A stretch of DNA of 26,682 nucleotides from a virus: positions 1 through 26,682 of the IMG/VR virus record IMGVR_UViG_3300032194_000096; one strand, written 5' to 3'. The notes beneath the pieces were generated by a model. It saw nothing but the letters and a program-made list of their open reading frames with translations. It did not search any database and had not been told where the DNA came from. Positions 1 to 18,448 of this stretch are shown in pieces. Each line of letters opens with the position of its first letter. The stretch's first letter is position 1. Made by a program: the position numbers and the translations under genes.

Positions 1-19
1 CGATCAGCGCCGCTTGATC

Positions 20-28
20 TGGTATACT
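20..28 (+). promoter_or_regulatory. Extended -10 promoter element (TGgTATACT)
   Basis: TG-n-TATACT is an extended -10 sequence with five of six matches to TATAAT. The -35 position would lie at the window edge and cannot be judged. It sits 22 bases before the ATG at 50, so the transcript leader would be short and C/A-rich. A host sigma-70 type early promoter is inferred. Confidence 0.45.
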
Positions 29-49
29 ATACACAACACACAGCACAGC

Positions 50-241
50 ATGAAACGAGTTCACAACGGTTGCTTTCTGGTTAACGACACCGCAGCAAAC
101 GACCCCATCTGCCAGCAGGTCATGGCATCCTACCTTGAGCAGGTGCAACGTGACGCCATGCGTTCAAAGGCAATCCGTGAGGGTCGCATCCCTGCACCCG
201 AAGGACAATGGGGCAACTGGCATATCAGCGATCGCGACTGA
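50..241 (+). CDS. Small hypothetical protein (63 aa), probably early
   Basis: I do not recognise this protein. It begins MKRVHNGCFL and is mostly polar, with a helical middle part (residues 20-40) and a tryptophan-containing end (GQWGNWHISDRD). No membrane segment or signal peptide is visible. I chose the ATG at 50 rather than the in-frame TTG at 14, because the earlier start would overlap the TATACT promoter element. There is no Shine-Dalgarno before the ATG; the leader is almost purely A and C. Base composition is clearly richer in G and C than the structural genes further right, as in the next small gene, suggesting that these two belong to an early accessory group. Confidence 0.6.
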   Translation: MKRVHNGCFLVNDTAANDPICQQVMASYLEQVQRDAMRSKAIREGRIPAPEGQWGNWHISDRD

Positions 242-286
242 GCGCCCTGGGCTCTACAATTCACACATACCAAACAAACACACATC

Positions 287-535
287 ATGAACGGATTCGC
301 CAACTACGAAACCTGGAATGCTGCCCTCTGGGTTGGCAATGATGAATTCCTCTACAACACTGCCAAGGCATGTGTGGAGTTCTGCGATGTTACCGAGACC
401 CCATGGGATAAGTTCGTGCGGTGCATGACTGACGGCGTGGTAGGTCGCTTTATCGGTGAGACAGGCGACGGCGTGCGTTGGAATGACCCTGCGATTGATG
501 CCGCTGAGATGAACGAATTGCTGGCAGATTTGTGA
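287..535 (+). CDS. YETWN-motif small phage protein (82 aa; DUF7249-like)
   Basis: The protein starts MNGFANYETWNAALWVGNDE. The pattern YETWN-x-ALW-x-x-NDE-x-LY is one I know from small phage and cyanophage proteins of unknown function (I recall the family as DUF7249). The length of 82 aa fits such proteins. It is acidic, soluble, and has no membrane segment. It follows the previous small gene by 45 bases. A weak -10-like TACAAT lies at 255-260 with no matching -35 box, and the leader is again C/A-rich without a Shine-Dalgarno. The stop codon lies inside a short inverted repeat. The function is unknown; the family is often found among early, host-takeover type genes. Confidence 0.75.
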   Translation: MNGFANYETWNAALWVGNDEFLYNTAKACVEFCDVTETPWDKFVRCMTDGVVGRFIGETGDGVRWNDPAIDAAEMNELLADL

Positions 536-549
536 CACTTAGCGTCACA
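531..549 (+). other. Perfect 6-bp inverted repeat over the stop codon
   Basis: TGTGAC (531-536) and GTCACA (544-549) form a perfect inverted repeat with a 7-base loop, overlapping the TGA stop of the 82-aa gene. As RNA it would make a small hairpin. There is no T-run after it, so on its own it is not a strong terminator. It may act together with the G5/C6 hairpin 15 bases downstream. Confidence 0.4.
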
Positions 550-563
550 CAGTTAGTGATACT

Positions 564-585
564 GGGGGACAGTTAATTGCCCCCC
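564..585 (+). terminator. Possible weak terminator hairpin, G5/C6 stem
   Basis: GGGGG at 564-568 can pair with the C-run at 580-585 across an 11-base loop. It is followed by the AT-rich stretch TTAATTGTTACTT. It lies at the end of the early-type small genes and before the late promoter at 657, which is where a transcription boundary would be expected. The loop is long and the U-tract poor, so termination is uncertain. Confidence 0.4.
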
Positions 586-656
586 TTAATTGTTACTTAG
601 GGTTGCCGAGCGAAAATCGAAGGGTCCCTCTAACCTACAAAAGTATCCAGACGACC

Positions 657-664
657 GATAAATA
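657..664 (+). promoter_or_regulatory. T4-type late promoter (GATAAATA)
   Basis: GATAAATA matches the T4-like late -10 box TATAAATA and the NATAAATA form of cyanophages in seven of eight positions. It is in a non-coding, A-rich stretch, 46 bases before the ATG at 711. Such boxes are read by the late sigma factor gp55 with the sliding clamp (family knowledge). It would drive the structural genes from 711 onward. Confidence 0.7.
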
Positions 665-710
665 TTTTTGAAATACTTGAAAATAAAAAAATTTCCGCCA
701 GAAAAAAATC

Positions 711-956
711 ATGAAAAAGGTCGATGAAAACCTATACGAAAACGCACTAAAGAATTTTGAGGAATTTTGCGATGGATTTGAACGAGCAGCATCTGAGAGC
801 TACCTCAGAGGAAACGGAGACACCCGAATCAGTCACTATACAGATAAGTATCGAGGAGATACTCCAGAAGTTATCCGAGAAACTCCTGGAAGTGGAGAAG
901 AAGGTTTTGGAGTTGGAGTCCCCGACATTGATGTATCGCCGCCCGAGTTCGACTGA
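711..956 (+). CDS. Hypothetical protein (81 aa), overlaps the next ORF
   Basis: This is the first ORF after the late promoter at 657. It begins MKKVDENLYENALKNFEEFC, with a polar, helix-forming first third and a glycine- and proline-rich acidic end. From 772 to 956 it shares its DNA with the 86-aa ORF in another frame. No Shine-Dalgarno precedes the ATG at 711; only an A-rich leader is present. Codon choice in the non-shared first 60 bases looks like that of the neighbouring structural genes, which supports translation at least there. I do not recognise the protein. Either it is real and the next gene overlaps it, or it is a leader ORF whose translation helps expose the strong ribosome site of the next gene. 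Confidence 0.45.
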   Translation: MKKVDENLYENALKNFEEFCDGFERAASESYLRGNGDTRISHYTDKYRGDTPEVIRETPGSGEEGFGVGVPDIDVSPPEFD

Positions 957-1032
957 GCACGAGAAATTAGCAGAAACACTCGATTATCTGCACAATAGTG
1001 TAGAGGAACTCAAAAGATGCCAGTCCAACTAG
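772..1032 (+). CDS. Short coiled-coil hypothetical protein (86 aa)
   Basis: The ATG at 772 is preceded by GAGGAA (759-764) at a good distance, better than the in-frame TTG at 757 that could also open the frame. Residues 27-48 form a clear coiled coil: I27, L31, L34, L38, V41, V45 and L48 follow strict 4-3 spacing. The N-terminal part is acidic; a second helix near the C terminus contains LDYLHNSVEEL. The last 16 bases overlap the next gene (ATG at 1017), whose own ribosome site lies inside this gene, suggesting coupled translation. A small oligomeric virion or assembly protein is an inference from the coiled coil and the location among baseplate genes. Confidence 0.65.
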   Translation: MDLNEQHLRATSEETETPESVTIQISIEEILQKLSEKLLEVEKKVLELESPTLMYRRPSSTEHEKLAETLDYLHNSVEELKRCQSN

Positions 1033-1922
1033 TAACAACACCATCCTGCATAGTAACTGGGAATACTTTCAAATTGGTCCCTGCACCGAATTATGTGAAG
1101 TATGTTGAGGAGACTCGTCCGATGGGTGAATACCCATGGTTATACGAGATCATCAACCCTAGCACAGTGATCACGGCGATTGGTGTTGGGGGATGCCCAC
1201 CACCGAAGGTTCCAGAATTAATCACAGGAATTCGTATTGAAGGGACTGGTTGCAGCATTCTGAAGATTGCTGATGTTGCGTATGAGCAAGGATATCCTAT
1301 ACCACAAAATATTCCTGAGATGACGCAGGGTTTCAACGAACCCTTCGTGGAATATGGAAGTATTGTATCGGCACCAGTTCCATCGCTTTCATTGGTAAAT
1401 CCATTGATTGGGTATTATAGTGAAAAATATTTCCATGACTCCGAGTGGATCTTCGGGACGTTTTACGAGACTGAGACTGATATATTAAAGAATAATTACA
1501 CGTCAGTGGATTTAATCCGAGGGTATCGAAAGATGAACCTAGAGGATGTTCCACCAGAGGTAGATCAATTAACATCGGAAGTATTTCCAGGTCAGTATGC
1601 ACAATTGGATGTTAATAAACTAGCACCTTTAGATCCACTGTATGTTCAAACGAAGGGCACCGACTTTTTCGATCAATTTGAACCTGAGATCTCATTATGG
1701 GTAAGGATGAAACCATCATTGATTGAATTGATGCAATATCAATATCTTTTAACGGTTACGCATACATGTCCACCGTATGTCACAACATTTACTGGAACAA
1801 TGGATGTTGTGAATAATTGGACACCTACTGCGAATCGTATTGGGTATTGGCTAGATAGAACAGTAGGATTTTTACCACCTCCACCAGGGGTAGAGTCTAA
1901 TTTACCAGGGGTTAATGATTAA
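1017..1922 (+). CDS. Conserved-type unknown protein before the PAAR tip (301 aa)
   Basis: I do not recognise a family. The protein starts MPVQLVTTPSCIVTGNTF and has mixed beta-type sequence with many prolines, no signal peptide and no membrane segment. The C terminus is proline-rich (PPPPG near residue 290). GAGGAA at 1003-1008 is a good ribosome site for the ATG at 1017. The stop overlaps the ATG of the PAAR gene (TAATG), so both are probably made together. Its place directly before the spike-tip gene suggests a virion or baseplate-hub role, for example a spike-associated protein, but no motif shows this. It is not recognisably T4 gp5: no lysozyme domain or spike-type repeats are visible. 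Confidence 0.75.
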   Translation: MPVQLVTTPSCIVTGNTFKLVPAPNYVKYVEETRPMGEYPWLYEIINPSTVITAIGVGGCPPPKVPELITGIRIEGTGCSILKIADVAYEQGYPIPQNIPEMTQGFNEPFVEYGSIVSAPVPSLSLVNPLIGYYSEKYFHDSEWIFGTFYETETDILKNNYTSVDLIRGYRKMNLEDVPPEVDQLTSEVFPGQYAQLDVNKLAPLDPLYVQTKGTDFFDQFEPEISLWVRMKPSLIELMQYQYLLTVTHTCPPYVTTFTGTMDVVNNWTPTANRIGYWLDRTVGFLPPPPGVESNLPGVND

Positions 1923-2218
1923 TGGCGAAACTGAGACCAATTAGCGCACAAGCAGATCTACATTCTGGACATGGATGTCACCCACCACAGGTAGGAGCAG
2001 CATCATCACCGAATGTATTTGTGAATGGAAGACCAGTGCATGTTGTGACAAACCCATTTGTGCCTCATACATGTGGTCCAGACACTCACCCAGACATCGC
2101 TGCAGTCGGTTCTACGAAGGTTTTAACCAACGGTCTATCTACTATGAGGTTAGGCGATAAACTGGCACCTCCTAGCATCATGGTGATGGGTGCATGGAAT
2201 GTGTTTGCAGGTGGTTGA
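1922..2218 (+). CDS. PAAR-motif spike tip protein (T4 gp5.4-like)
   Basis: At 98 aa this is close to the 97 aa I recall for T4 gp5.4. PAAR proteins form a small cone that caps the central spike and binds a metal ion, usually through three His and one Cys. Here the matching pattern is visible: NVFVNGRPVHVV, then PHTCGPDTHPDIAAVGS, then VLTNGLSTMRLGD. H40, C51 and H56 with H17 or H20 are candidate ligands. The classical Pro-Ala-Ala-Arg stretch reads STMR here, as is common in phage versions. The protein is glycine-rich throughout. It starts in a TAATG junction with the 301-aa gene. The product should sit at the very tip of the tail and help to pierce the outer membrane. Confidence 0.9.
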   Translation: MAKLRPISAQADLHSGHGCHPPQVGAASSPNVFVNGRPVHVVTNPFVPHTCGPDTHPDIAAVGSTKVLTNGLSTMRLGDKLAPPSIMVMGAWNVFAGG

Positions 2219-2223
2219 AACTG

Positions 2224-2232
2224 TGTTATAAT
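2224..2232 (+). promoter_or_regulatory. Extended -10 promoter element (TGtTATAAT)
   Basis: A perfect TATAAT (2227-2232) with an upstream TG lies directly after the PAAR stop codon and 24 bases before the ATG of the 48-aa basic gene. The -35 region (near TTGCAG at 2205-2210, 16-base spacing) is poor, as is common for extended -10 promoters. It suggests that the next small gene has a sigma-70 type promoter of its own inside the late cluster. Confidence 0.5.
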
Positions 2233-2256
2233 ATGGGAGTCAATCAATAGGATACT

Positions 2257-2403
2257 ATGGCACGAAGCAAAGTTGGACTTTCTGGCGGACCTAACATCGA
2301 GTCCAAACCCAAAAAAACGCGACAGGGTTCGGGGCAGCACACGAAATATGCTGCCAGTTCTCGTAATAACAAGCGTAAGCGTTATCGTGGTCAAGGACGT
2401 TGA
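2257..2403 (+). CDS. Very basic 48-aa protein, nucleic-acid binding likely
   Basis: This short ORF starts MARSKVGLSGG and ends KRKRYRGQGR. I count 14 Lys/Arg and only one acidic residue in 48, and it is rich in Gly and Ser, so it should be unstructured and able to bind RNA or DNA (inference). I recall similar short basic proteins with this N-terminal pattern in other T4-like cyanophages, always of unknown function. A ribosome site AGGA (2249-2252) precedes the ATG, and a TATAAT promoter is just upstream. The last bases overlap the TTG start of the 224-aa gene. It may be packaged, or act on transcription or ribosomes; nothing in the sequence decides this. Confidence 0.75.
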   Translation: MARSKVGLSGGPNIESKPKKTRQGSGQHTKYAASSRNNKRKRYRGQGR

Positions 2404-3074
2404 ATTTAATCTGTAATCTTCCTGCTAAAAAGGTATGGGTTCGTAAAGAATATCTAAGAGATCATCAGGACGGTCACGGAGAGTTTGTAGAGGGCGTCTG
2501 GGTATCGGCAAAATCGATACCTGGGCGTGCTTTTTACTTTGAGACCTACCTTCCTGAGTATGGAGCGATGTATGATAAGTTACCTATCAGTGCTTTTCTC
2601 CGAGCGCCGAAAACACCGACGCCAGATTTGTCTTTAGAGAACCTACAGTTTTGGAACTGTATGGATTATGGGGTTACATGCATCAATAAAGGTTTTGTGT
2701 CTTCTATGGATGCAGAGATCTTCACCCGCGACCATGGTTTGATTCATGGTCAATATTTGTTTACATTAGATAACTATCATGCAAACATTGATGTGATAGA
2801 TAATAATGTAAGTGAGACTCCTGCCGAACACAAGAGTCATAATTGCATAGCACTAGAGAATGGTCAGTTTGCATTGTATCCTAATAACAGGATGCGTCTG
2901 TATGACCTCTCTATAACGCCTGAAGCGCCCCGTTTCCCTGATTTCAAGGTATCTACCATAGAATACCAAGTAGAGGCAGGAATCGACTGGGGACGTTTAG
3001 GTGATACTGATGATTATTTTTGGGAAACCAATGCTGAACGAAAACAACGGACGGAGACCAATCATGGGCAATAG
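2400..3074 (+). CDS. Unknown protein, 224 aa, conserved type in cyanophages
   Basis: The frame opens with TTG at 2400, overlapping the stop of the 48-aa gene (GTTGA). No ATG or GTG occurs near the N terminus, so the TTG is the best start; AAGGA (2393-2397) is very close to it and coupled translation is likely. The protein begins MNLICNLPAKKVWVRKEYL and has a conserved-looking centre with GRAFYFETYLPEYGAMYDKL. I recall similar proteins in cyanophages near gp25 and gp6 but no function. It contains no membrane segment and no signal peptide. The C terminus is charged and overlaps the next gene by 11 bases. A role as virion or baseplate assembly protein is inferred only from the neighbours. Confidence 0.75.
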   Translation: MNLICNLPAKKVWVRKEYLRDHQDGHGEFVEGVWVSAKSIPGRAFYFETYLPEYGAMYDKLPISAFLRAPKTPTPDLSLENLQFWNCMDYGVTCINKGFVSSMDAEIFTRDHGLIHGQYLFTLDNYHANIDVIDNNVSETPAEHKSHNCIALENGQFALYPNNRMRLYDLSITPEAPRFPDFKVSTIEYQVEAGIDWGRLGDTDDYFWETNAERKQRTETNHGQ

Positions 3075-3237
3075 CAAAGTCGATAAAAGTCAAAATTTTA
3101 TTGATGAGGGTATGACTCTCATTACCGAAACCGATAGTGAACGTCATCTCAAGCGAGCTCGTAAAATGAAAGATGTCAAAGAGGGTGAGATCTTTGACAA
3201 CCAGGAAGAATGGGCGGATGGGTTCTGTGGTAAGTGA
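3064..3237 (+). CDS. Small charged hypothetical protein (57 aa)
   Basis: The start is the ATG at 3064, with GGAG (3053-3056) at normal distance; it overlaps the end of the 224-aa gene by 11 bases. A longer frame from 3001 would run deep into that gene and lacks a ribosome site. The protein starts MGNSKVDKSQNFIDEGMTL and is highly charged, probably one or two helices, ending in WADGFCGK. I do not recognise a family. The TGA stop is part of the late promoter of gp25 (GATAAATA at 3236). It may be a small assembly factor; that is a guess from position. Confidence 0.65.
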   Translation: MGNSKVDKSQNFIDEGMTLITETDSERHLKRARKMKDVKEGEIFDNQEEWADGFCGK

Positions 3238-3243
3238 TAAATA
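3236..3243 (+). promoter_or_regulatory. T4-type late promoter for gp25-gp6 (GATAAATA)
   Basis: GATAAATA overlaps the stop codon of the 57-aa gene and lies 25 bases before the gp25 ATG. It is the same form as the box at 657. gp25 lacks a clear Shine-Dalgarno, and the transcript leader would be only about 15-20 bases. Confidence 0.75.
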
Positions 3244-3267
3244 GAAACAGCCTAATAGTGTGTCTAC

Positions 3268-3657
3268 ATGCCAACGTTTCAAACCTTTAAGGATTTGAAT
3301 ATAACATTTAAGAAGCATCCAAATTCTGATGATTTGGTTGTTATTAAGGATGATGCTGCAATTAAGCAAGCAATCAAGAATCTGTTATTGACAAATGTTG
3401 GTGAAAGACCATTCCAACCTGCTCTTGGTTCAAAAATCCCAAGACTTTTGTTTGAACCATTGGATTACCTCAGTAGTTCATTGATCAAAGACGAAATTAA
3501 AAGAGTTATTGGGACATATGAACCAAGAGTAGAACTCATCAGAGTTGATTGTGAACCAAACGCTGATGAAGATGGTTATGATGTTGATTTTGATGTGAGA
3601 ATCTTAGGGCGTGATAATGTTATATCATTAGAACTATTTCTAGAGAGAACCCGATAA
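3268..3657 (+). CDS. gp25: Baseplate wedge protein gp25
   Basis: This is the gp25/GPW family, a small wedge protein of contractile tails (129 aa here, 132 in T4). The family mark is the central stretch LTNVGERPFQPALGSKIPRL, followed by the helix LFEPLDYLSS and a C-terminal beta part ending in SLELFLERTR. In T4 it sits at the inner wedge beside gp6 and gp53, next to the sheath initiation site. In cyanophages the gene commonly precedes gene 6, as here; in T4 it is elsewhere. It starts 25 bases after a late promoter and ends in TAATG, so its stop overlaps the gp6 start and expression is coupled. Confidence 0.95.
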   Translation: MPTFQTFKDLNITFKKHPNSDDLVVIKDDAAIKQAIKNLLLTNVGERPFQPALGSKIPRLLFEPLDYLSSSLIKDEIKRVIGTYEPRVELIRVDCEPNADEDGYDVDFDVRILGRDNVISLELFLERTR

Positions 3658-5462
3658 TGCCATACGCTCAATTAGCAAATCTAGATTTTGATCAGATTAA
3701 GATTGCTCTTAGAGAATATATCAAGAGCACATCTGATTTTACTGACTATGATTTTGAAGGTTCTGCCCTTTCGGTCATAATCGATACTCTCGCCTATAAC
3801 ACCTACTATACGGCGTTTAATGCCAATATGGTAGTCAATGAACTATTCATTGACTCTGCTACCTTGAGAGACAATGTGGTGGCGCTGGCAAAACAATTAG
3901 GTTACACCCCGAAGTCTATTGTTGCTCCAACAGCAACTGTAACGTTTAATGTAGACTTTACGGGTTCAACACCTGCAAACAATCAAATTGTTTTAGAAAA
4001 AGGCACTGGATTTGTTGCGACATATGATAATAACTTATATCAGTATGTTGTTGTCAATGATGTAAAGCGATCGATCGTATCAAATCAGGCAATTTTTGAC
4101 AATGTAGACATCAAAGAAGGAACTTTAATTACTGATACCTACGTTGTAGATAACTCCAAGAAAAATCAGAGATTCCTTATTGAGAATAGAAACGTGGATA
4201 CGTCCACGATTACAGTAGATGTATACCTCAACGAACAATCTACTGTTGCAGAAGAATATAAACTATCGACAAATATTCTTGGTGTAAACAAAGAGTCCAA
4301 GATTTATTTTGTCAATGAGATTGAAGATGAAAGATATGAGTTATTCTTTGGCGATGGTGTATTAGGAAAGAAACTTGACGATGGTCAGAAGATTGAGGTT
4401 TCTTACTTAATTACCAATGGTCCAGAGACTAACGGAGCAAAAGACTTTACTTTTAGTGGTGTTTTAAAAGATAACATTAATAATACCAACTATCCGTTTA
4501 CAACGTCTATCAATTCGTCCGCTACGGTCGCTGCAAACGGCGGTAACGAGATCGAAGGCATTAAGAGCATAAAGTATAACGCACCCAAGTATTTCGGCAC
4601 ACAGGACCGTGCAGTGACCGCTGGTGACTATGCTGCTATTGTCAGAAATGTATATCCTGCTATCTCTGACATCATTTCTTTTGGTGGTGAGGAGCAAGAA
4701 CCACCTGCATATGGACAAGTCTTCTTGGTGATCAAACCAACCAGTGGTTCTTATTTGTCAACATATACAAAACAGCAGATCAAGTCTGCTTTGAAAGATT
4801 ACATGGTTGCTTCTGTAACTCCTGAAATCTTAGATCCATCTATTTTATATGTCGAACTTGACAGTAAGATCTTCTACGATACAAGAAAGACCAATTTCAC
4901 TAATGAGCAAATCAGATCTGGAGCAATCAATAGTATCGAAGGTTACCTTGCACAGTCAGATACCGAAAAGTTCAATGGTAAATTTAGATACAGTAAGGTA
5001 GTTGGTGTCATCGACGAGTCTGATATGGCAATCAACTCAAACCTGACTAGTGTAATCATGAGGAAGGACTTCTATCCTCAGTTAAATTCAACCTTCTATT
5101 ATGAGGTTTGTTATCAAAATACATTCTTAGATGATGACGATCCCGTTATGAGTTCAACTGGGTTTGTTGTTTCCGAATATCCCAATTATACCGTGTATTT
5201 GGAAGATAGGGTTGGCAAAATCATCCTATATAGAATAGATCCCCTGTCGGGAGAAAAGGTTGTCTTGAACTACTCTCAAGGCGATATTAATTATGAAAAG
5301 GGTGAGATCATGTTATATGATTTAACTATCATCAAAGGTAGTTTTAATGACAATAGAATTGAACTTAGAGTTCTTCCTAAGTCCAATGATATTGTTGCAA
5401 AACGCGAGGTTTACTTAGACGTAGACATTGCAAAAAGTAAATTCCAAGTATATCAAGAGTAA
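3657..5462 (+). CDS. gp6: Baseplate wedge protein gp6
   Basis: gp6 forms the dimeric ring of the wedges, the core of the baseplate (Baseplate_J family). At 601 aa it is near the size of T4 gp6 (about 660). The N terminus shows DYDFEGSALSVIIDTLAYNT and NELFIDSATLRDNVVALAKQ, the conserved first helical domain. Residues around 300-325 carry the J-type signature NAPKYFGTQDRAVTAGDYAA. The C terminal part is beta-rich. The ATG overlaps the gp25 stop. The stretch at about 4500-4630, coding for the J signature, uses more C- and G-ending codons than its surroundings. Function in the wedge together with gp25 and a gp7-type protein is established for T4. Confidence 0.95.
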   Translation: MPYAQLANLDFDQIKIALREYIKSTSDFTDYDFEGSALSVIIDTLAYNTYYTAFNANMVVNELFIDSATLRDNVVALAKQLGYTPKSIVAPTATVTFNVDFTGSTPANNQIVLEKGTGFVATYDNNLYQYVVVNDVKRSIVSNQAIFDNVDIKEGTLITDTYVVDNSKKNQRFLIENRNVDTSTITVDVYLNEQSTVAEEYKLSTNILGVNKESKIYFVNEIEDERYELFFGDGVLGKKLDDGQKIEVSYLITNGPETNGAKDFTFSGVLKDNINNTNYPFTTSINSSATVAANGGNEIEGIKSIKYNAPKYFGTQDRAVTAGDYAAIVRNVYPAISDIISFGGEEQEPPAYGQVFLVIKPTSGSYLSTYTKQQIKSALKDYMVASVTPEILDPSILYVELDSKIFYDTRKTNFTNEQIRSGAINSIEGYLAQSDTEKFNGKFRYSKVVGVIDESDMAINSNLTSVIMRKDFYPQLNSTFYYEVCYQNTFLDDDDPVMSSTGFVVSEYPNYTVYLEDRVGKIILYRIDPLSGEKVVLNYSQGDINYEKGEIMLYDLTIIKGSFNDNRIELRVLPKSNDIVAKREVYLDVDIAKSKFQVYQE

Positions 5463-5468
5463 GATTAG

Positions 5469-8400
5469 ATGGTCGTAAAGAATAGGAGCATCTCTCATTT
5501 AATTGAGGATCAATTACCTGAATTTATCGTAACCGATTATCCACTATTTGCTCGTTTCTTGGAGAAATACTACGAGCAAGCAGGATCTCGTGGGCAGCCA
5601 TTTGATATTCTCAATAATCTAGAAACATATAGAGATATTGATTTCTATGAGGAGTCTTTGCTAGATCAAAGTTCCCCTTTGGTTGGAATTATCAACAATA
5701 CCGATTCTACTATTGAAGTAGAAGATGCGTCTTCATTCCCTAGTAAAAACGGTTACATCAAAATCGATGATGAAATTTGTTTTTACAAAGAAAAGCAAGG
5801 TAATGTTTTCTATGATGTTTCCAGAGGAGTAAGTGGAAACACCAAACTAGGAGATCTTTACACTGAAAGTGAATTTGTTACCACTCAGGCAGCAGCACAC
5901 TCTGGAACTGAAGTATACAATGTAAGCAATCTGTTCTTGTATGCATTAGTCAAAAACTTTGAACTCGATTATCTCGATTCATTTCCACAGAAATATTTGA
6001 AGCAAGAAATTGATAAGAGGACACTTATCAAGAATATTTCTAATTTTTACAAAGTAAAGGGAACCGAGACTTCAATCAAGTTTATTTTCAACACGATTGT
6101 TGCTAGGGATTCTGATAATGTTCCTACAACATATAACCCAAAAGACTTCACTTTAAAGTCTTCTACTTCTGATTGGACAACTGCATATTCTTTAAAAGTT
6201 AAAATACTTGGGGGTGACCCACAGGACCTTATTGGAAATAGAATTACACAAAATAATGGTGATTTAGGATTCTCTTCTGCGGTAGTTGATAACGTAAGAC
6301 CAATCGGTGGATCACCTGATGAACAGATCCACGAAGTCATTCTAAACCAGTCAACTGTCAATGGAACGTTCAGGATTGCATCCCGAACTGAACTAGAAAA
6401 AGACATTCCAGAAACAACATCGAAAGGAGATTTAGTAACAGTTCAATCAACTGTTGGATGGAAGAGGTTTGGAAAGTTTATCGTCAACAACGAAACCTTT
6501 GAATTCAATGATAAGAATGTAAAACAGTTTACATTACTTGGCAGAGATGGTTCTGCTACTCATGCTGCAGGAACATCTGTATATGATTATGCTCCAGCAG
6601 TATACCGCGATTTTGAATTAATTGTTTTTGGCGTCTTATATGACCTAGAAACTCAAAGTAATTCGACTTACTCTCTACCTGGAGATCCAGTTCAATCAAC
6701 TCTTCCTGGATTTACCACAAAAGATAGAATCATTTATGATGTTGTAGATGAAGCAGTTCGTTGGAGAGTCAATTTAAACAATGCATATCCAACTGCAGTG
6801 ACTAATAATGTATTGCAACCTGAGTTAATAAAATATCTCGGTGGTGTATCTGCAATTTATGAAGATGATCAATTCTACTATATCTGTTCATCTGGATATC
6901 CAACTTATGATATTCTAACTGCTGCAAGTTCTGGAACTCTTTCTGATGCAAAGAATTTAAAGATTGTTAGAAAGAGACCAACTCAAACAACAGAGATTTA
7001 CAAAACCACTAATACTTCGGTAGGTGTGTTCTTAGATGGAACTATTGCTTATAGTTTTAGAGATTCTGATCTTGTAAAATTTGGCAGTATTCAAGAAATT
7101 GAAGTTACTCAAAAAGGATCTGGATACAAAGCAGCACCTTATGTTCTAGTTAATAATCAAGCAGGAAAAGCAAGAGCATTCTTAAGTGGCGAAACAGTTG
7201 ATAGAATTGTATCACTTGATGATACGTCATATACTACTGATCCAGAAATTACAATCACTTCTGGTAGAAATGCAAAAGTTCGTGCTATTGTCACTAATGG
7301 AGCGGTAACGAGTCTCGTAATTGAAAATCCAGGAGAATATTACTCTTCACCTCCTATTGTAAGAATTACTGATAGAAGTGGAAGAGGAAAGTTTGCATCT
7401 TTCAATGCAATTATTGATAATGATGGTAGATTAGTTGATTTTGAAAGGATTGAGACTGGAAGACTATACACTCAAGAATTTGTAAAGGTTGAGATAATTG
7501 CAGAAGGTAATTTTGCAGAAGCAGAAGCAAATATCAGAGAATGGGTTAAGAACAGATATTCTGTTGAACAATCTTTATTGGATCAAAATGGAGGAACTTT
7601 ATTTGACAATACCTTCACCACTAACAAAAAACTTTATGGTGTTATCAGTAATCCACGAAGACTTCGTTTATTACTAAGCGACAATATTCAAAGTAATCTA
7701 TCAGAAGCAAATATACTAGCACACTCTCCTATAATTGGATATGCATATGATGGCAATCCGATCTATGGTCCTTATGGATATAGCGACCCAGGAGATTCGT
7801 CCTCTTCTATTTCCAGAATGATTTCTGGATACTCTTTGAATAATTCAAGAACTGGTGGTCCTTCGACTACAACATATCCATTAGGAACGTTTATTGATGA
7901 TTATACATGGAGTAAGAGTGAACTGACTGGTAAAACTGCTCTCGATGAAAACAATGGTAGATATTGTGTAACTCCAGAGTATCCTGAAGGAACATATGCA
8001 TACTTTGTCACCATCACTGCGACTGGTCAACCTGCATATCCATACATTTTAGGAGAAAATTATTATTCACTTCCAGTTGCTTCAAACTATGATCAATCTC
8101 TAAATCAAGATGATCTGCCTACTGATATTAGCAGATTGAATGTTAATAACACTTTAGATGCTAGTGGATTTAATTCTATTGCAACAATTAGATCGACAAC
8201 TAGAGGTTCTGTAAGTGGCGCAAATGTTGAGGTCAAAAACACTACACCACGTTCTTTTTCTGTGGATTGTGTAGTAGAAATTGATGACTCTTCAACAAAA
8301 GGTGTAGGAGCTCTTGCAACTATTAGTGAAGTTACAGGAGAGACGATTGACAAGATTGAGTCTGTTCAGACAAAATCAGTAAAAATTAATACTATTCGTC

Positions 8401-16546: not shown

Positions 16547-16574
16547 GTAAGTTGTATAAATATAAATAACTTAC
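16547..16574 (+). promoter_or_regulatory. Two overlapping T4-late promoters inside an inverted repeat
   Basis: TATAAATA occurs at 16555-16562 and again at 16561-16568, sharing two bases. Both are exact T4 late boxes. They are framed by a perfect 7-bp inverted repeat, GTAAGTT (16547-16553) and AACTTAC (16568-16574). The gp8 ATG is at 16610 with AAGGA (16598-16602) as ribosome site. A strong, separate late start for gp8 and the genes after it is inferred. Confidence 0.8.
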
Positions 16575-16609: not shown

Positions 16610-18448
16610 ATGCCTGCAATTATTTCAGATAAATTTAGAATTTTTAACGCGAAGCAGTTTATCGAGTCTTTAACCGAAGGCACTACAGCGGGGTCGGGTG
16701 GTGATCCTGAAGTTGGTGACGAAAGGACGAGACTTTACTTCTTCGTTGGTCGCCCCCAAAGATGGGATGCATTCATTGAGATCTATTCTCAATCAGGTGG
16801 TAGTTTCGCCGTTGGTGATGAAGTATACATCGGTGCTAACTACGCAACAGGTTCATTCAAAGGCATTGTAAGACAAGTTTTCCAAGATTCACTTCTACTC
16901 TATAACATCAATGGCACACAAGGCGTTGCTAGTGTTCCAACAGTAGGACAAACACTAGAAACCGCAGGTGGTGCTCAGGCAAAGGTCGGTATCTACAGAT
17001 ATGCAACCGATGAAGCAGCACCTCTTCCAGTAGACAACCAAGAAGAGAAGTATTCTGTATATGATGATATCATTGCAGCAAAGAGAATCACCAATGATTA
17101 TGTAAGAACTGTAATTAAGAGATATAACTGGCAGACTAACACCACATATGATATGTGGAGACCAGATTATTTCTCAACTCAAACAGGTAGAGTTGGTCTT
17201 CAGTCCGCTACTGGTGCTAACACCATTGGCGAAGCAAAGTTCTATGTCATGAACCAACAGTATCAGGTATTCAAGTGCCTCTACAATGGAACTGACTTCT
17301 CTAACCTCAACGGTCAAGCATCCACTGAAGAACCTTCACTAACTCCTTCTGCTGGAACATATGATTCTGCTACAGGCATCTATGAAGAGTCTGGTGGAAC
17401 ATATAAGTGGAAGTTCATGTATACCATGTCAACCGATGACGTTCTAAGATTCCTATCTACTGACTTCCTGCCAATCGTTCTTCCTACCGACCCAACCAGA
17501 GTTGACACTGCATCTAAGGTTGTTGTTGGTGCTATCGATGCATATATTACCACTGATACTGGTTCAAACATCAATGCTACCAATGGAACCTATTATGCTC
17601 CAGTAAATGGCGATGGTTCTGGCGCTATTGTTGCTCTAACCCTAGATAGCGGTTCGATCACAAATGCAGTAGTTCAAGAAAGAGGATCGGGTTATACTTA
17701 CGGCACGGTCGCAATTGCAACAGGAACAGGATCGGGTGCAACTGCATACGGTCTATTTGACGATGCTGCTCTAACTTCAAGTGCTAGCGTTAACGCTGGT
17801 GCAACTGGTAAAGTTGAAGTTATCCTACCTCCACAAGCAGGTCACGGTGGAGACATGGAACTCGAACTCAATGGTAAGCGAGTTATGACCAATATTCGTC
17901 TCTCTTATGACGAAGGTTTCGGTGACTTCCCTGTTGATAACGACTTCCGTAGAATCGGTATTATCCGCGATCCTTACGAGAGAGGAACTACAACTTATGC
18001 AACCGCAGATACTCTAAATGGTCTAACCGCATTTAGAATCACTGGAACAGGTGCAGACTACATCGTAGATGAAGTCGTTACTCAAGCTGTAACTGGTGGA
18101 ACTGCAAAAGGTCAGGTCGTTTCCTGGACTCCAGATGCTGCAGGAAGCCCAAATGGTATTCTTAAGATCTTCCAAAGCGTTGACTATCACCAAGACAACG
18201 GTGTTGTAAGAGCATTCGATGAATCTCTTGCTGCAAACCTTGATGGTGAAACCTCTCTTGCAGATGGAAGTATCGACAATACTTACAACCAAGCAGCAAG
18301 TGATACCCTATTCGGTAGTTTCACCAATGGTGTTTCTCTTCCAGAAATCGAACAGAACTCTGGAGATGTCATATACATAGAGAATAGAAGACTAATCACT
18401 AGAGCTGCTGACCAGATTGAAGATATCAAGCTAGTTATCGAGTTCTGA
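16610..18448 (+). CDS. gp8: Baseplate wedge protein gp8, enlarged
   Basis: The C terminus SGDVIYIENRRLITRAADQ followed by IEDIKLVIEF matches the end of T4 gp8 (SGEMIYMENR…AMDQTEEINILFTF, from memory). Other shared points are the N terminus SDKFRIFNAKQF, FFVGRPQRWD, NTTYDMWRPDYF, GGTYKWKFMYTMS with LPIVLP, and FRRIGIIRDP. T4 gp8 has 334 residues; this protein has 612. The extra length lies mainly in a GSGY beta insert (residues about 334-383) and a second beta-rich insert (about 475-560), plus an insert near 60-125. gp8 is a dimeric wedge protein that binds gp7 and gp10 in T4. It follows the gp7-like ORF as in T4. The start has a good ribosome site and its own late promoters. Confidence 0.92.
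   Translation: MPAIISDKFRIFNAKQFIESLTEGTTAGSGGDPEVGDERTRLYFFVGRPQRWDAFIEIYSQSGGSFAVGDEVYIGANYATGSFKGIVRQVFQDSLLLYNINGTQGVASVPTVGQTLETAGGAQAKVGIYRYATDEAAPLPVDNQEEKYSVYDDIIAAKRITNDYVRTVIKRYNWQTNTTYDMWRPDYFSTQTGRVGLQSATGANTIGEAKFYVMNQQYQVFKCLYNGTDFSNLNGQASTEEPSLTPSAGTYDSATGIYEESGGTYKWKFMYTMSTDDVLRFLSTDFLPIVLPTDPTRVDTASKVVVGAIDAYITTDTGSNINATNGTYYAPVNGDGSGAIVALTLDSGSITNAVVQERGSGYTYGTVAIATGTGSGATAYGLFDDAALTSSASVNAGATGKVEVILPPQAGHGGDMELELNGKRVMTNIRLSYDEGFGDFPVDNDFRRIGIIRDPYERGTTTYATADTLNGLTAFRITGTGADYIVDEVVTQAVTGGTAKGQVVSWTPDAAGSPNGILKIFQSVDYHQDNGVVRAFDESLAANLDGETSLADGSIDNTYNQAASDTLFGSFTNGVSLPEIEQNSGDVIYIENRRLITRAADQIEDIKLVIEF
17609..17758 (+). repeat. GSGY beta repeat inserted in gp8
   Basis: Residues 334-383 of gp8: GDGSGAIVALTLDSGSITNA, then VVQERGSGYTYGTVAI, then GTGSGATAYG. 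It has no counterpart that I recall in T4 gp8 and has the same pattern as the repeats in the giant protein on its left. Confidence 0.7.

Follow-up and report, generated by a model that had tools for sequence, protein, structure and literature searches.

Next to a run of baseplate genes, a 26,682-nt stretch of viral DNA (hereafter the window) contains a very small gene for a strongly basic protein, P48. The signals upstream of P48 set the gene apart from the adjoining structural genes, and the question raised by the locus is when during infection its product is made and what it does.

The P48 gene (2257..2403, + strand) encodes 48 amino acids, among them 14 Lys/Arg and one acidic residue (E15), as the initial annotation had stated. 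Its translation and a profile search assign it to phrog_516, the T4-GC394 family: the profile matches over the full length (residues 1-48 on 1-48/48, E 1.1e-26), and the gene takes the position just upstream of gp25. Comparison with four close relatives gives 13-16 synonymous and 3-7 nonsynonymous codon differences, and on such sequence evidence the ORF at 2257-2403 is a genuine conserved gene. The family is already known. The T4-GC394 label is borne by S-PM2p076 and PSSM7_087, hypothetical proteins of T4-like cyanophages, which share with P48 the full-length profile match, the size and the site upstream of gp25 and show no difference in kind; their records give neither function nor promoter. 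What is new is the recurrent host-type promoter, the lack of a late motif and the hairpin conserved in the neighbouring gene, of which no description was found in the open-licence papers searched. The names S-PM2p076, T4-GC394, phrog516 and CAF34140 do not occur in the main text of any open-licence paper searched, nor do passages of infection time-course papers mention the gene.

A tBLASTn search, which the initial annotation had proposed as a check on conservation, matched 443 cyanophage or marine-virus phage records at E<=0.01; the lack of conservation that would have counted against the gene was not seen. When the limit was relaxed or a divergent query was used, 447 and 449 records matched. 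The matching record names start with Synechococcus, Prochlorococcus, Cyanophage or Marine. T4-like cyanophages are abundant viruses of marine picocyanobacteria, and the majority of those sequenced appear to carry P48, judged from total counts rather than record by record: 351 Synechococcus phage and 63 Cyanophage records match P48 (E<=0.01), against 373 and 61 records so named for gp6 of the window (E<=1e-10).

The surroundings of the gene are nearly fixed. P48 is preceded by a PAAR-motif gene (1922..2218, +; Pfam PF05488) and followed by a 224-aa gene (2400..3074, +; phrog_3704), a 57-aa gene (3064-3237), the baseplate wedge gene gp25 (3268..3657, +; profile and Pfam searches) and gp6 (3657-5462). 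The placement between the PAAR gene and the 224-aa gene, whose TTG start at 2400 overlaps the P48 stop, agrees with the first description of the locus; the overlap is real, since in ACG-2014e the relative of the 224-aa gene has an ATG start that overlaps in the same way. The ribosome-binding site claimed there is present as AGGA (2249..2252, +), 4 nt before the P48 ATG, although it is moderate and not conserved rather than good. Among the non-redundant loci with enough downstream DNA, 71/72 have P48 just upstream of gp25. S-CREM2, in which no P48 was found in 3.5 kb around gp25, may be an exception to this synteny. Because the linkage to gp25 is nearly fixed, it is uncertain that P48 is unrelated to the neighbouring structural proteins, as had been proposed. 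An Rfam scan of 1900-3300 gave no match. The 224-aa gene has no Pfam or NCBIfam match, a PDB profile search with it returned 0 matches, and the AlphaFold model of its product has a pLDDT of 46.3. Different records call its relatives 'PurM' or 'ferredoxin', and both names look unsupported.

Upstream of P48 lies a sigma-70-type promoter (2204..2232, +) made up of TTTGCA (2204-2209), a 17-nt spacer, TGt (2224-2226) and TATAAT (2227-2232); the TATAAT with its TG extension (2224-2225) had been noticed initially. The site has the features that define the type (hexamers at -35 and -10 with 16-18 nt between them, or an extended -10) and, with 10/12 hexamer matches, ranks first among the 17 promoter-like sites of 1-6000. 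On window statistics alone, the P48 promoter could be chance: shuffles of 1-6000 predict 17.8 promoter-like sites, and the exact TGnTATAAT occurs once in the 26.7-kb window against 1.9 expected. It is conservation in relatives that raises the promoter above chance. Near the predicted transcript start, the motif AGTCAAT (2238..2244, +) is conserved in many relatives.

Recurrence was assessed in a first locus set, in which the P48 start was present in 110/112 loci; 80 were left after removal of short upstream regions and of those with >=75% identity over 90 nt. Within 160 nt of P48, TGnTATAAT occurs in 22/80 loci, compared with 0.5 expected from shuffles of 2-base blocks, and in 16 of the 22 the TATAAT sits at -29 to -31, S-PM2 and Sf-CH1b included. 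ACG-2014e likewise has TGnTATAAT upstream of P48. With a promoter score of simple, analyst-set weights, in which a strong match is >=5 within 120 nt, 38/80 P48 upstream regions qualify and 6% of shuffles do; at other starts in the same loci a score >=5 is reached in 6/78 (gp25), 17/76 (gp6) and 4/34 (224-aa gene). In another set, selected through the 224-aa gene and partly overlapping the first, P48 has a strong promoter in 49/116 loci. The claim of a sigma-70 type promoter of its own is thus borne out through recurrence in relatives, and control of P48 is probably of the host type. The same promoter pattern suggests early or constitutive expression. Two observations count against this explanation: 42/80 loci lack a strong promoter match in the 120 nt before P48, and gp6 scores >=5 in 17/76, though no early promoter is expected there. 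Further, one clade has a TTGACA-17-TACAAT match within the last codons of the upstream gene (frame as read by the analyst), and part of the promoter signal may therefore be coding constraint.

According to a passage in a review (PMC2984593), late genes of S-PM2 have NATAAATA, the T4-type late promoter, which is a phage promoter class; in the window the late motif GATAAATA (3236..3243, +) stands 32 nt before gp25. Within 100 nt of the start, NATAAATA is found before gp25 in 63/78 loci and before the 57-aa gene in 1/27, and it is found in 0/80 for P48, 0/76 for gp6 and 0/34 for the 224-aa gene. Upstream of P48 it is never present, neither within 160 nt in the first set (0/80) nor within 120 nt in the second (0/116), and the idea of a late promoter hidden in the TATAATA before P48 was rejected. 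With a late motif before gp25 and none before P48, P48 lies just outside the gp25 late unit; the initial annotation had set it inside the late baseplate cluster, but it is at the upstream edge of the cluster, before the gp25 motif at 3236-3243. The window also has GATAAATA at 657-664, and late transcripts from further upstream may reach P48.

The P48 promoter resembles that of gp32 in T4-like cyanophages. A search of IMG/VR for the full module TGnTATAATAnnnnAGTCAAT, a pattern built from P48, found at least 119 stretches; among the matches listed, 55 stand before P48 and 18 before gp32, 45 fall in other contexts and 1 is truncated. Because the pattern was derived from P48, it is the proportion before gp32 that carries information. 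For two of the proteins downstream of TGnTATAATAnnnnAGTCAAT taken as gp32, the identity as ssDNA-binding protein was confirmed (phrog_224). Expression of gp32 is early/middle, and this replication gene lies at another place in the genome. The gp32 of ACG-2014e has a TTGACA-TATAAT site without AGTCAAT. In passages of the review cited above (PMC2984593), homologues of early T4 genes are said to carry sigma-70-like motifs in S-PM2 and Syn9, and such motifs are said not to have been found before early-gene homologues in S-RSM4. Seven further IMG/VR loci (L116, L123, L136, L142, L150, L188, L198) have the promoter module with a TTGAC -35 and no ORF >=30 aa starting within 80 nt; these modules could possibly belong to another early unit or an RNA.

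Downstream of P48, 91 nt after its stop and within the 224-aa gene, a terminator-like hairpin (2494..2535, +) has a 15-bp stem with arms at 2494-2508 and 2514-2528 and a run of five T at 2531-2535 (MFE -29.8, z -5.5). Its stable, G+C-rich stem with a run of T behind it gives it the form of an intrinsic terminator. The constraint imposed by the protein was controlled by redrawing codons among the synonymous codons of the same gene: the median z is -3.76 over 40 distinct homologues, 36 of them below -1.5. In a larger set that includes these 40 (hairpin survey loci L002-L081 and L241-L472), 221 copies linked to gp25 or gp6 have a median z of -3.94, with 155 below -2 and 66/221 not below that value. 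Stem covariation is modest, as 82.3% of cells are paired compared with 79.8% in shuffles; cells with both sides changed number 22 against 14.2 in shuffles, and pairs with such a change 4 against 3.6. RNAalifold kept 8 pairs of the stem, none of them compensatory.

How far the hairpin belongs to P48 is a separate matter. Where the 224-aa gene has moved away from P48, the hairpin mostly follows it (L007, L030 and L075; not L074) and is hence not strictly a P48 element. The hairpin and the P48 promoter are weakly associated in a 2x2 comparison (39/49 vs 40/67, p 0.03), and promoter score and hairpin strength show no correlation (Spearman -0.01). In complete genomes, two copies of the 224-aa gene at other places encode the same 25-residue peptide and have no hairpin (S-CAM22, z +1.33; P-TIM68, z -0.42); in the wider set both fell into the ambiguous group for lack of flank. 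That set holds four unlinked segments only, one with a strong hairpin (L449), and as its contrast with linked copies gives p 0.21, restriction of the hairpin to 224-aa genes next to gp25 was not established. A terminator between early and late units is a possible role for the hairpin at 2494-2535.

The protein itself has a net charge of +13, and among 116 distinct P48 sequences the charge ranges from +11 to +15 with at most two acidic residues. Residues K19, G24, K41, Y43, R44, G45, Q46 and G47 are invariant in both alignments (23 and 25 sequences), and the near-invariant residues take the form KTRQG ... SRN ... KRYRGQG; the N-terminal part is variable and is shortened in ACG-2014f, S-CAM7 and P-TIM68. 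The AlphaFold model (pLDDT 57.7, no secondary structure) is consistent with a peptide whose folding depends on contact with a partner. A PDB profile search with P48 gave 0 matches at E<=10, and Pfam and NCBIfam likewise gave none at E<=10, so that no known nucleic-acid-binding or ribosomal family was matched among curated families or solved chains at that limit. Nucleic-acid binding is plausible from charge, composition and the near-invariant residues.

Our best explanation, to which we give a probability of about 0.5, is that P48 is transcribed by host RNA polymerase early or throughout infection and is a basic nucleic-acid-binding protein that serves replication or takeover; as to its role, early binding of RNA or DNA is the likeliest guess. 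Host RNA polymerase would make a short P48 transcript independent of late transcription. The product would be a disordered, strongly basic protein whose near-invariant residues would bind nucleic acid specifically, be it RNA, the ribosome or single-stranded DNA, and it would act during replication or takeover. The hairpin in the 224-aa gene may partly stop the transcript before gp25-gp6. If P48 does bind RNA or the ribosome early, it would be a small takeover factor, and the in-gene hairpin would show how such phages keep early transcription apart from late inside a single gene cluster. A fuller version, in which P48 is a core early protein with its own gp32-like promoter, a hairpin acting as a conditional terminator and ribosome or phage RNA/ssDNA binding all together, is improbable; here the hairpin, kept at synonymous sites in the translationally coupled 224-aa gene, would keep early polymerases out of the gp25-gp6 operon.

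The near-fixed linkage to gp25 is compatible with a late or assembly role as well. P48 would then be produced together with gp25-gp6 as a basic peptide, internal or associated with the baseplate and attached, for instance, to the packaged DNA or to the tail, and the promoter would add basal expression only. This reading is doubtful, though it draws on the position directly upstream of gp25 in 71/72 loci and in 15/18 contigs from bacterial or archaeal assemblies, and on the 42/80 loci without a strong promoter of their own, where P48 could be cotranscribed from upstream. It also draws on the usual single acidic residue, a Glu in 111/116 sequences and mostly in an [IV]-E-[STGA] context, which loosely resembles a prohead-protease site. 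The motif rule used for this comparison is that of the T4 internal-protein type. As a prohead-protease substrate P48 was rejected: divergent members (L210, L211 and SSZBM1_213) no longer have the Glu, the residue two before it varies widely, and the motif is not conserved in all members. The absence of any late motif upstream of P48 (0/80, 0/116) argues against a virion protein, as does the virion table of S-SZBM1 (PMC9146016, Table 1, 30 proteins), which lacks the P48 homologue SSZBM1_213; coming from one phage and a small protein, this is weak evidence, and gp25 (SSZBM1_210) is missing from the same table, though named as detected in the text of that paper. The S-CREM2 virion list (PMC10665884, Table 3) is no test of P48, because none was seen around gp25 of that phage. 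For S-SM1, 41 virion proteins are reported (PMC3037559). Small basic peptides that bind DNA in virions are known from other phages. The phiX174 J protein and the T4 internal proteins resemble P48 in size and charge only, and their promoter context differs.

An early host-takeover peptide that acts on the translation machinery by binding the ribosome or rRNA would suit the small size, the conserved glycine/basic/aromatic motif, the lack of a predicted fold of its own and the host-type promoter, but P48 is unrelated to any solved chain or curated family at E<=10, and we consider this specific role unlikely. Least probable of all is that the promoter is incidental and functionless, a promoter-like string that arises because the phage DNA is rich in A and T and the last codons of the gene upstream are constrained. 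The single-window statistics, which are not significant, and the TTGACA-17-TACAAT match in coding sequence of one clade (in the analyst's reading of the frame) would agree with it. However, the enrichment over shuffles and over the starts of gp25, gp6 and the 224-aa gene at the same loci, the -29 to -31 position in 16/22 loci including S-PM2, and the module before gp32 weigh against it.

Annotation of the gene is uneven. The warning that automatic gene finders can miss P48 holds for some records: among the 60 records listed of 447, two (Syn30, ACG-2014h) have no feature under the P48 match and two are without any annotation, while the others list a feature at P48. In P-HM1 (L082, 5980-6117), the annotation misses P48 and has an ORF in the wrong frame, PHM1_084, across it, so that P48 cannot appear in expression tables that follow such an annotation. 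A GTDB scan found 18 P48 loci in contigs filed under bacterial or archaeal assemblies. As both gp25 and gp6 adjoin P48 in 15 of them, these 15 are probably phage contigs; at L229, L231 and L233 the flanking DNA examined contains no gp25. One contig of 188 kb (L230, NZ_RMVE01000006.1), from an isolate assembly of Nonlabens xiamenensis, has P48, gp25 and gp6 in cyanophage order and is probably a T4-like phage genome. Elsewhere in the window, two overlapping perfect TATAAATA late motifs (16555-16568) stand just before the gp8 gene at 16610.
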